From an uncultured Bacteroidia bacterium (GTDB taxonomy: Bacteria > Bacteroidota > Bacteroidia > Bacteroidales > UBA932): a DNA stretch of 64,000 nt. The notes beneath the pieces are model-generated. The model was given only the letters and a program-made list of their open reading frames with translations, had not been told where the DNA came from and ran no database searches. Positions 5,077-8,335 of this stretch are shown in pieces. Location: the NCBI GenBank assembly GCA_902768985.1, contig CACXNA010000002.1, positions 124,001 to 188,000 on the forward strand, read 5' to 3'. A program made the position numbers and the translations under genes. Position 1 is the first letter of the stretch. The number at the start of each line of letters is the position of its first letter.

Positions 5077-5673
5077 CTAGTCTTCCCCCGCCTTCAGGTC
5101 TTCGATCATCGCCTTGGCGCGGCGGATGCGGGTGCGGACCGTGTTGAGTTCCATGCCGAGTTCCTCGGCGATTTCCTTGTACTGCAGGCCGTCCAGCAGG
5201 CGCATCCGCGCGATGGTGCGGTACAGGTCGGGCAGGCCCTCGATGTAGGCCTCGAGCTTTTCGGCGTCTTCCTCCTCGACGATCTGCTCCAGGGGCGTCG
5301 CCGCCTCGTCGCCCAGCACGTCGATGATGGCGCCGCTGTGGTCGTTCTCCTTGTCCAGCGAGACCAGGCGGCTGCGGGCGCGCGTCTCGGCGTCGATGGT
5401 GTCGAGCGCCGTGTTGTGCGCGATGGTGCGGAGCCAGGTCGAGAACTGGCTCTTGGACGGGTCGAAGGAGGAGATCTGCCGGAACGCTTTCTCGAAGCTG
5501 CGCGAGCAGATGTCGTCGATGTAGAAGTCGTCCAGGTACTTCATCGCCCCCTTCAGGTAGGCGCGAAGGCTGCCGATGTGGGTGTCCCACAACTCGGTGA
5601 AGGCGGTGCCGTCGCCGATGATCGCCCGGCGGACCAGTTCGTCAGTGGGCTTCAAGCCAGGTTTTTCCATCAT
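5077..5673 (-). CDS. ECF-type RNA polymerase sigma factor
   Basis: 198-residue sigma-70 family factor of the extracytoplasmic-function type. Region 2 spans ~15-85 (AFTELWDTHIGSLRAYL, then WLRTIAHNTALDTID) and region 4 spans ~130-190 (GLPDLYRTIARMRLLDGLQY with the helix-turn-helix KEIAEELGMELNTVRTRIRR). No anti-sigma gene is adjacent. Its start (ATGATG at 5668-5673) overlaps the end of polA by 32 bp, so the two may be coupled. After the stop at 5077, another frame runs on with protein-like sequence to 5037 (see findings). Confidence 0.92.
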   Translation of the reverse strand: MMEKPGLKPTDELVRRAIIGDGTAFTELWDTHIGSLRAYLKGAMKYLDDFYIDDICSRSFEKAFRQISSFDPSKSQFSTWLRTIAHNTALDTIDAETRARSRLVSLDKENDHSGAIIDVLGDEAATPLEQIVEEEDAEKLEAYIEGLPDLYRTIARMRLLDGLQYKEIAEELGMELNTVRTRIRRAKAMIEDLKAGED

Positions 5674-8335
5674 TGCATTCTACGGTCAGGGGTACAGACA
5701 GGGAAATGACGCCTTCCATCTCGCGGACCAGCATTTCGCGCACAGGCGCGACTTCTTCCTGCGGGACCTCGAGCAGCAGTTCGTCGTGGATCTGGAGGAC
5801 CATCCGGGCGCGGTAGCCGCCTTCGCGCAGGCACCGGTCCACGGCGGTCATCGCCAGTTTGATGATGTCGGCCGCCGTGCCCTGGATGGGGGCGTTGACG
5901 GCGTTGCGTTCGGCCAGGGCGCGGACCGCGGCGTTGCCGGCGGCGATGTCCGCGATGTAGCGGCGACGGCCGAAGAGCGTCTCCACATAGCCGCGTTCGC
6001 GCGCCTGCGCGACGGTGGCGTCGATGAAGCCGCGGATGGAGGGGAAGGACGCGAAGTAGTCGTCGATGATCTGCTTCGCCTCGCTCCGGGAGCAGCGCAG
6101 CCGTTCGGCGAGGCCGAAGGAGGAAATGCCGTACATGATGCCGAAGTTCGCCGTCTTAGCGATGCGGCGCTGGTCGGCAGTCACCTCCCCGATGGGGATG
6201 TGGTAAATTTTCGCGGCCGTGGCCGCGTGCACGTCCTGCCCCTGCCGGAACGCCTCCACGAGGTGGGCGTCCCCGCACAGGTGCGCCATCAGGCGCAGCT
6301 CGATCTGCGAGTAGTCCGCCGACATCATCACCCAGCCCGGTTCACCCGGCACGAAGGCCTTGCGGATCTCGCGGCCTTCTTCGGTGCGGATGGGGATATT
6401 CTGGAGGTTCGGGTTCGAGGAGGACAGGCGGCCGGTGGCGGTCAGGGCCTGGTTGAAGGTCGTATGCACCCGGCCGTCGGCCGGGGAGATGTAGCCCCCG
6501 AAGGGCTCGATGTAGGTCGACAGGAGCTTCCGCAGGCCGCGGTAGTCCAGGATGGCGTCGATGATGGGGCTGCGGTCCGCGAGGTGCGAGAGGGTCTGCT
6601 CGTCCGTGGGCCAGTTGCCGGATTTGGGCTTCTTCGCCTTCGGATCCAGCTGGAGTTTCTCGTAGAGCAGCACGCCGATCTGCTTGGGCGACAGGATGTT
6701 GAGCGTCGGATCGTCAGCCCGCTGGCGGATTTCCGCTTCGCGCTCGGTCATCTTGCGGCGCAGGCCGTCGGCGAAGTCGCGCAGCGATCCCAGGTCCACC
6801 TTGACGCCCGTGCGCTCCATGCGCGCGAGCACGCCGATGAGCGGCTCTTCGATCTCGTCGTAAAGGCGCGTCATGCCTTCGGTGGCGGCCATTTCGCGCA
6901 GCAGGCAGTCCGACAGGCGCAGGATGGCGGCCGTTTCGAGGAGACGGTCCGGGCCGGTCTCTTCCGGGACTTCGTCGAAGAGCGAGCCGGTCTCCTGCGG
7001 CGCGGCGGATTCCAGCTCGACGCCGAGGTAGGCGCGCGCCAGCACGTCCAGCTTGTGGCTGCGCTCGGGGCCGAGGAGGTAGTGCATGAGTTCGATGTCC
7101 TCGAGACGTCCCGCCAGCGTGATGCCGGCATCCGCAAACGTCTTCATTTGCCCCTTCAGGTCAATACCCACCTTCGTCACAGCGGCATCCTCCAACAACT
7201 CTTTGAATTCTGCAAAGCTGCCTTCTGCCACCCCCGCCTCGCATCCCACGAACAACTTCTCACCCTGCAGGTTAATGGATATTTTGTTTCCTTGTATCTC
7301 TTTGACTTCCAATCGCCGCAGTGGCAGCGGGCAACTACCCCCGGAAATGTCCTGCTGCGCAGGACCCCACCGCTGCGCTTCGCTTGCGGTCCCCCCTCTT
7401 ACGATGCCGAGGGTAGCACGGTTTCCGGGGGCAGTTCCCGCTGCCGACATTGCGGCGTTGTCAGCGATAGCTACTTTTTTAATTAATCGTTTCAGGGAGG
7501 GCATTTCGTAGTGGTCGAGGAGGGCGTTCAGCTCGGGGGTCTCGACGGTGTCGAAGACGAGCTGGTCGGCCGTCACGTCGAGCGGAATGTCCGTCTTGAT
7601 CGTCACCAGGCGCTTGGACAGCGCGATGTGGCCCTCCGCCGCGCGGAACTGCTCCTGCTGCCGCGCCGTCAGCTCGTCGAGGTGCGCGTAGATCCCCTCC
7701 ACGCTCCCGTACTTGCCCAGCAGCTTGGCCGCGCCGACCGGTCCTACGCCCTGCACGCCGGGCACGTTGTCCGACGCGTCGCCGCAGATCGCGAGGATGT
7801 CAATGACCTGCGCGGGCGAAGCGATTTTCCATTTGTCGCAGACCTCTGCGACGCCCAGCAGCTCGTTCTCTCCCCCACCCTTGCCCGGCTTCACCTGCAG
7901 GATGTGCGGCGTGATCAGCTGGCCGTAATCCTTGTCGGGCGTGACCATGAAGACCTCGAAGCCCTCGGCCTCGAAACGCTTCGCGGCGGAGCCGATCACA
8001 TCGTCCGCCTCGAAGCCCGGCAGCATCAGCACCGGGATGTCCAGCGCCTCCACGATACGCGTCAGCGGCTCCAGCGCCTCCACCACCAGCGCGGGCGTCT
8101 CGCCGCGGTTGGCTTTGTATTCCGGGTACAGTTCGTTCCGGAAAGTGCCCCCCGGAGGGTCAAAGCTGACCGCGATGTGCGTCGGGCGCTCGCGATCGAT
8201 CAACTCGAGCAGATACTTCGTGAAACCGAACAGGATAGAGGTATCCACCCCCTTGGAATTGACCATGGGCCGGCCCAGGAAGGCATAATACATCTTGAAG
8301 ACGAGCGCGTGGCCGTCGATGAGGAAAAGTTTCAT
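5642..8335 (-). CDS. polA: DNA polymerase I
   Basis: 897-residue DNA polymerase I for Okazaki-fragment maturation and repair. The N-terminal 5' nuclease domain covers residues ~1-290. The C-terminal polymerase domain is intact: motif A SADYSQIELR (~668), motif B RRIAKTANFGIMYG (~720), motif C QIHDELLLEV (~845). The region between looks like a degenerate 3'-5' exonuclease: it is shortened and I cannot find the DxE, D and D metal ligands of the active enzyme. At residues ~293-341, at the domain junction, lies a 48-codon in-frame segment encoded by a large palindrome (7314-7457). A near-consensus -7 box lies 5 bases before the ATG. Confidence 0.95.
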   Translation of the reverse strand: MKLFLIDGHALVFKMYYAFLGRPMVNSKGVDTSILFGFTKYLLELIDRERPTHIAVSFDPPGGTFRNELYPEYKANRGETPALVVEALEPLTRIVEALDIPVLMLPGFEADDVIGSAAKRFEAEGFEVFMVTPDKDYGQLITPHILQVKPGKGGGENELLGVAEVCDKWKIASPAQVIDILAICGDASDNVPGVQGVGPVGAAKLLGKYGSVEGIYAHLDELTARQQEQFRAAEGHIALSKRLVTIKTDIPLDVTADQLVFDTVETPELNALLDHYEMPSLKRLIKKVAIADNAAMSAAGTAPGNRATLGIVRGGTASEAQRWGPAQQDISGGSCPLPLRRLEVKEIQGNKISINLQGEKLFVGCEAGVAEGSFAEFKELLEDAAVTKVGIDLKGQMKTFADAGITLAGRLEDIELMHYLLGPERSHKLDVLARAYLGVELESAAPQETGSLFDEVPEETGPDRLLETAAILRLSDCLLREMAATEGMTRLYDEIEEPLIGVLARMERTGVKVDLGSLRDFADGLRRKMTEREAEIRQRADDPTLNILSPKQIGVLLYEKLQLDPKAKKPKSGNWPTDEQTLSHLADRSPIIDAILDYRGLRKLLSTYIEPFGGYISPADGRVHTTFNQALTATGRLSSSNPNLQNIPIRTEEGREIRKAFVPGEPGWVMMSADYSQIELRLMAHLCGDAHLVEAFRQGQDVHAATAAKIYHIPIGEVTADQRRIAKTANFGIMYGISSFGLAERLRCSRSEAKQIIDDYFASFPSIRGFIDATVAQARERGYVETLFGRRRYIADIAAGNAAVRALAERNAVNAPIQGTAADIIKLAMTAVDRCLREGGYRARMVLQIHDELLLEVPQEEVAPVREMLVREMEGVISLSVPLTVECNDGKTWLEAH
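7314..7457. repeat. Palindromic element inserted in frame in polA
   Basis: Arms of ~35-37 bases at 7314-7348 and 7421-7457 are inverted copies with few differences and a 2-3 base indel. Both contain GGCAGCGGG and CCCCCGGAAA in the same order when one is read as reverse complement. Inside are further hairpins: GTCCTGC (7349-7355) with GCAGGAC (7359-7365), and ACCGC (7369-7373) with GCGGT (7386-7390). The 144 bases are 48 codons without a stop in the polA frame. Confidence 0.8.

Follow-up and report, generated by a model that had tools for sequence, protein, structure and literature searches.

Palindromic elements lying in frame within genes were first described in Rickettsia. As set out in parts of one account, the Rickettsia palindromic elements (RPEs) are palindromes of about 150 bp that occur in many copies and lie in frame in unrelated genes, and the same parts describe MITEs as short, non-autonomous elements with inverted ends that are sometimes found in frame within genes (PMC10969869). 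The REPs are described, in the portion of the source drawn on here, as single hairpins of 20-40 bp that are mostly intergenic and bear GTAG or CGTC tags; the same portion places intragenic REPs in DNA and RNA metabolism genes of other species, including that of DNA polymerase I, and lists CGTC-tagged REPs in Bacteroidetes (PMC3733652). The element considered here lies within polA of a Bacteroidales genome. It has a length of about 110-180 bp and a long paired stem bearing three apical hairpins, foldable as a single strand. Like the RPEs, to which it is likened by description, it is dispersed, palindromic, of approximately the same size, and in frame in unrelated genes, and unlike them it belongs to another phylum, has a four-armed fold with a sequence-variable yet paired stem, and shows a switch in base composition at its targets. 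Its mode of working is, by analogy, that of the RPEs, but in Bacteroidales and with a fold of its own, and the comparison with Rickettsia drawn in the original prediction proved apt, given scattered copies, empty orthologues and frame-keeping insertions. Like REPs, it is palindromic, dispersed and sometimes located in DNA polymerase I, with HUH transposases in the same genomes; unlike them, it is not a single tagged hairpin of 20-40 bp. With MITEs it shares a short, non-autonomous form, inverted ends and occasional in-frame location, but its end and arm sequences are not conserved, and inspection by eye of 18 alignments, whose linkers have diverged, brought out neither a target duplication nor a fixed end sequence. 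No parent element was found in the surveys described below. The prediction knew of no such family in Bacteroidota, which is too broad a statement, CGTC-tagged REPs having been listed there (in the part of PMC3733652 drawn on); among the open-licence papers listed by the searches, no title or abstract describes this element or in-ORF palindromes in Bacteroidales.

The window, meaning the whole stretch of 64,000 nucleotides that was analysed, contains the following features of the polA locus.

5645..8335, minus strand: polA, the host gene, 897 aa, reading frame open throughout
7314..7457, minus strand, element orientation equal to the polA strand: palindromic element within polA (residues 293-341), from inverted arms and folds
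7314..7347, no strand assigned: first arm of the outer stem, from inverted repeats and RNA fold
7422..7457, no strand assigned: second arm of the outer stem, from inverted repeats and RNA fold
7349..7365, no strand assigned: apical hairpin GTCCTGC-tgc-GCAGGAC, from DNA and RNA folds; helix 5 in the 93-copy covariation
7370..7389, no strand assigned: apical hairpin CCGCTGCGCTTCGCTTGCGG, from DNA and RNA folds
7394..7413, no strand assigned: apical hairpin CCCTC..GAGGG, the most conserved of the three, from folds; helix 3, 99.8% paired in the 93-copy covariation

The element had been predicted as an in-frame palindrome with internal hairpins, and the inverted arms and DNA and RNA folds bear out its coordinates, reading frame and hairpins. 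Complementarity between the arms is 80% for 7314-7328 with 7443-7457 and 89% for 7330-7347 with 7422-7439. The segment 7314-7457 folds with z = -6.7 as DNA and, as polA-strand RNA, with z = -7.5, and none of 200 dinucleotide shuffles folds as well in either case. The covariance model of the family matches 7325-7445 (G000:C2:131325-131445, G000 being the genome of the window) with 112.8 bits and an E value of 8.9e-22. At the protein level the insert comprises about 48 residues between the Pfam 5'-nuclease C-terminal domain, which ends at 264, and the 3'-5' exonuclease-like domain, which starts at 373. In an AlphaFold model of PolA (30 genus PolA sequences; mean pLDDT 83.3, pTM 0.62), residues 294-334 have pLDDT below 50, and the element appears to be translated as a disordered extra loop. 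The PolA linker of other genus members (L050, L058, L061, L062) holds other in-frame repeats, of a four-fold VIPTFPD type, VISSEVEKS and VILSEAKDL, the last presumably resembling short TTCTGAGCGAAGCGAAGAATCT-type palindromes.

The element is one of a family. BLAST against its own genome hits 10 places, of which some belong to a single copy, and covariance model R1 finds 13 strong copies (E <= 5.6e-12), a count that excludes one weak partial match (E 0.006); the second, scattered copies for which a search had been proposed are present, some in other genes. Among 101 sampled genomes of the genus, whose members are uncultured gut bacteria, the covariance model matches 88 (E up to 1e-3), with 35 candidates scored per genome, such that the 31-35 matches of several genomes may be undercounts. 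An order-wide scan, with 18 candidates scored per genome, found the element in four of 198 genomes, namely its own, one of another genus in the same family, and two of other families. An exact core pattern occurs in at least 117 stretches of named genomes; 79 of the 80 matches listed are titled Bacteroidales or Bacteroidia, many names among the matches listed refer to samples from the rumen or other ruminant stomachs, and the remaining match is a short contig titled Lachnospiraceae that may be misbinned. One scan of viral contigs found no stretch with the core pattern.

A MAFFT alignment of 18 copies from the own genome and relatives (A2; nine more candidates, two of them repeats, were left out by the anchor rule) gives a consensus of 123 positions with several helices; compensatory change is seen at 20 of the 32 pairs in its fold. 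Doubly changed cells number 77 versus 23.3 in shuffles, with none of 500 shuffles as high, for a structure in which one apical helix is out of register. In 93 distinct copies taken from the named set, each of the 17 outer-stem pairs shows change in both arms, 94-96% of cells are paired, and 585 cells are doubly changed versus 145.9 in shuffles; this alignment was fitted to the covariance model and is biased towards it, whereas A2 is not. The outer stem drifts in sequence yet its pairing is kept. Long forms of 175-181 bp (L103:340-520, L111:1501-1675, L112:1501-1681, L113:1501-1675 and L066:1818-1998) carry an extra hairpin-bearing segment within one apical hairpin.

All 13 copies of the own genome lie inside ORFs, 12 ORFs of 333-858 aa (lengths within the stretches analysed), 11 with Pfam matches and one without. 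The hosts by domain are PolA, an HI0933-like flavoprotein, DsbD, two TldD-like proteins, a radical SAM protein (which we take to be YgiQ-like), DnaX, a THUMP-like protein, an HhH protein, a methyltransferase assumed to be RlmI-like, and a host with two copies that is presumably TrmB. Ten copies are outside Pfam domains (one touching an edge), two are inside (radical SAM, HI0933), and one is in the unmatched ORF. The DsbD-like protein (L104) contains a second repeat, GQARNDYNGARNDYNGARNDD. Over a wider set, 200 kept matches reduce to 188 distinct and, after removal of 13 too near a locus end, to 175 classified copies; six of 94 matches that were partial or cut off, including the Lachnospiraceae-titled L296, were excluded before classifying. 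A simple codon-model gene finder, which classed one own copy (L075) as intergenic despite HHH domains in its ORF, places 121 wholly within genes, 52 between genes and two over a gene end, and in 4000 random windows it gives 3249 inside, 560 over an end and 191 intergenic. It replaced a classifier based on flank codon score that was too insensitive, 662 of 2000 random windows being scored 'same-frame-open'. Intergenic DNA is over-used relative to random windows, though most copies are genic (121 of 175), unlike REPs, which are mainly extragenic. The proposal that the repeat spreads into linkers of essential proteins is too narrow, given the 52 of 175 intergenic copies and the two of 13 own copies inside a Pfam domain.

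Genic copies occur in both orientations relative to the host gene, 53 the same and 68 opposite. Frames are used 33/20/0 times by same-orientation copies, the unused frame being one that reads a conserved TAA, and 35/19/14 times by opposite-orientation copies, in which all three are used. Open frames number 686 among the 905 non-TAA frames of 181 anchored copies, versus 190 among 543 frames in shuffled copies; selection may account for part of this openness, since most sampled copies are genic. Because five of six frames are used while stem pairing is kept, it would be the hairpin rather than the peptide that is maintained, whether selection acts on the DNA or one arm is copied from the other. 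Purging would remove insertions that disrupt a reading frame or a folded domain, and the survivors would be those read as disordered linkers. A functional RNA or regulatory structure of benefit to each host gene could also account for the very stable fold with its covariation, but copies in both gene orientations and 52 between genes, unrelated hosts, presence and absence that differ between close relatives, and an Rfam search of 10 loci (E up to 1) in which nothing matched the element make such a role very improbable. The only Rfam match in those 10 loci is the Bacteroidales small SRP RNA at L005:939-1046 (104.5 bits).

Flank searches among the loci analysed gave 26 occupied/empty pairs with distinct letters, once those with short flanks, repeated sites or more than 60 nt of unaligned tail had been left out. 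In all 26 the two members differ by a multiple of three, by 84-216 bp net; the pairs are non-independent in that several share one RlmI-like gene. The cleanest pair is a pseudouridine-synthase gene (PF00849), occupied in G096 and empty in G000, with flanks 96 and 93% identical; of seven close species, three have an element at this site (G074 judged by eye) and four do not. The original prediction had proposed a search for PolA orthologues lacking the 48 residues, and of 55 PolA loci scanned in the genus 49 are without the element, including that of the close relative G015, while six carry it, in gene orientation in G000, G096 and G074 and reversed in G081, G008 and G113. Neither of the outcomes that the prediction named as contrary to it has come about, since the genome has 13 strong copies and 49 of the 55 loci scanned are without the segment. 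Scattered copies, orthologues without the segment and frame-keeping insertions, all of which are found, support the reading as an insertion, and some segments in protein alignments of this genus are mobile rather than ancestral sequence. At one TldD site G000 and G096 hold elements in opposite orientation and with different arms between flanks 95 and 93% identical. In comparisons of G096 with G000 (L115/L370; L118/L105), tens of bases beside a changed insertion appear by eye more diverged than the 93-96% identical wider flanks, as if insertion or loss were accompanied by local rewriting of the linker.

Taken across genomes, these sequences make it very probable that the family is a non-autonomous mobile palindrome. 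A recurrent pattern, in which the same linkers are occupied across species (PolA, TldD, TrmB, THUMP-like, radical SAM) with orientation or subtype differing, might instead reflect old insertions, with sites filled early in the genus and then reshuffled by arm inversion, gene conversion and losses, with little or no current movement. This history is rather unlikely: at one gene, occupied and empty states are interspersed across seven close species and the closest two genomes disagree, and G081 has 10 near-identical copies (L165-L174) with mostly different flanks, two of them sharing a left flank. Seven of these ten are classed intergenic and three are at contig ends, and they have further outer inverted layers (GTGCCGTTCTTG, GCATTCCGG) in common beyond the model. 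Dispersal, as part of the predicted 'selfish repeat', is evident from the scattered copies, and the repeat may be selfish.

The element is found at sites of a particular composition. In flanks of up to 150 nt, pyrimidines prevail on the left and purines on the right, a pattern identical on both strands, with left/right values of -0.106/+0.146 at genic copies (n=121) and -0.127/+0.127 at intergenic ones (n=52); the G/C switch is absent at positions drawn at random from the same genes. Right minus left is positive at 46 of 51 non-redundant genic sites (Wilcoxon p 4.5e-9) and at 12 of the 13 own copies (p 0.001). Along the 64-kb window, positions have a mean of 0.000 and sd of 0.116, and 3.2% of them reach the own-copy mean of 0.226. 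Twenty empty sites show the same switch (-0.123 left, +0.099 right), six pairs with another element near the empty site being excluded from the skew means. Because empty sites show it too, the switch from pyrimidine to purine seems older than insertion, unless those sites formerly held a copy, and the element was set aside as its cause for the same reason. For PolA only, with 13 loci skipped by the motif rule, the left side is no different and the right side is +0.22 at four occupied versus +0.02 at 19 empty loci, a weak comparison. Copying of the arms from target DNA was considered and rejected, since own flanks have no pairing advantage over swapped flanks beyond 30 nt (-29.2 versus -28.6 kcal/mol at 30-80 nt).

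Candidate movers include the Y1 (HUH) transposases, and proteins matching PF01797 (E up to 1e-3) are found in 78 of the 101 genus genomes. Y1 is absent from 10 of 13 element-free versus 13 of 88 element-bearing genomes (Fisher p 1e-5) and, among the 48 genomes at least 90% complete, from four of four versus five of 44 (p 6e-4). On a PolA tree of 96 of the 101 genomes, simulated Y1 histories (251 of 1500 kept, namely those whose count of absences was similar) have a mean of 3.65 double absences, and none of the 251 reaches the observed 10. A control family, DDE_Tnp_1, has no such link (seven of 13 element-free, 30 of 88 element-bearing genomes). Y1 as mover is inferred from this correlation, and the correlation has counter-examples: G001, G013 and G014 are without a Y1 match and have 11, 9 and 14 element matches, respectively. 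The own genome's Y1 matches score weakly, with E values of 1e-3 and 4e-3. Unlike REPs beside their RAYTs, the element does not adjoin RAYT-like genes; only one of 36 Y1 loci contains it, and Y1 loci are accordingly unsupported as its direct parents. At 19 Y1 loci (of 35, those passing the ORF rule) a gene's own flanks pair far better than swapped ones, with mean scores of 42.4 and 20.0, and many Y1 genes bear flanking hairpins of their own. That these genes carry such hairpins and are not flanked by the element fits movement by another enzyme, such as the DDE transposases of classical MITEs, or through an RNA intermediate, with the Y1 link indirect; this too we consider unlikely, as DDE_Tnp_1, the family compared, is not commoner in element-bearing genomes. 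That a RAYT-like transposase of the HUH (Y1) type acts in trans on the hairpin in its single-stranded form, preferring sites where pyrimidine switches to purine, is a working model, held tentatively. More speculative is the full combination, in which a genus-wide mobile hairpin, copied in trans by an HUH enzyme at such switches and mostly stop-free in five of six frames, could act as a generator of in-frame linkers for core proteins of the PolA and DnaX type. RPE-like behaviour in a widely sampled Bacteroidales genus makes spread of the element and tolerance by proteins testable, because close relatives offer both occupied and empty sites, an enzyme family is available as a candidate, and the preference for targets can be measured.

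Three of five of these Y1 proteins match the NCBIfam REP-associated tyrosine transposase, below its cut-off. One RAYT-like gene of the own genome, G000:C1:177631-178774 (L247), has on each side two copies of a 26-bp palindrome, AACTGTGGG..CCCACAGTT. The palindrome pattern occurs at nine places in G000 and at four in G096 but is absent from five other relatives, and this gene with its palindrome is a small REPtron separate from the polA-type element.
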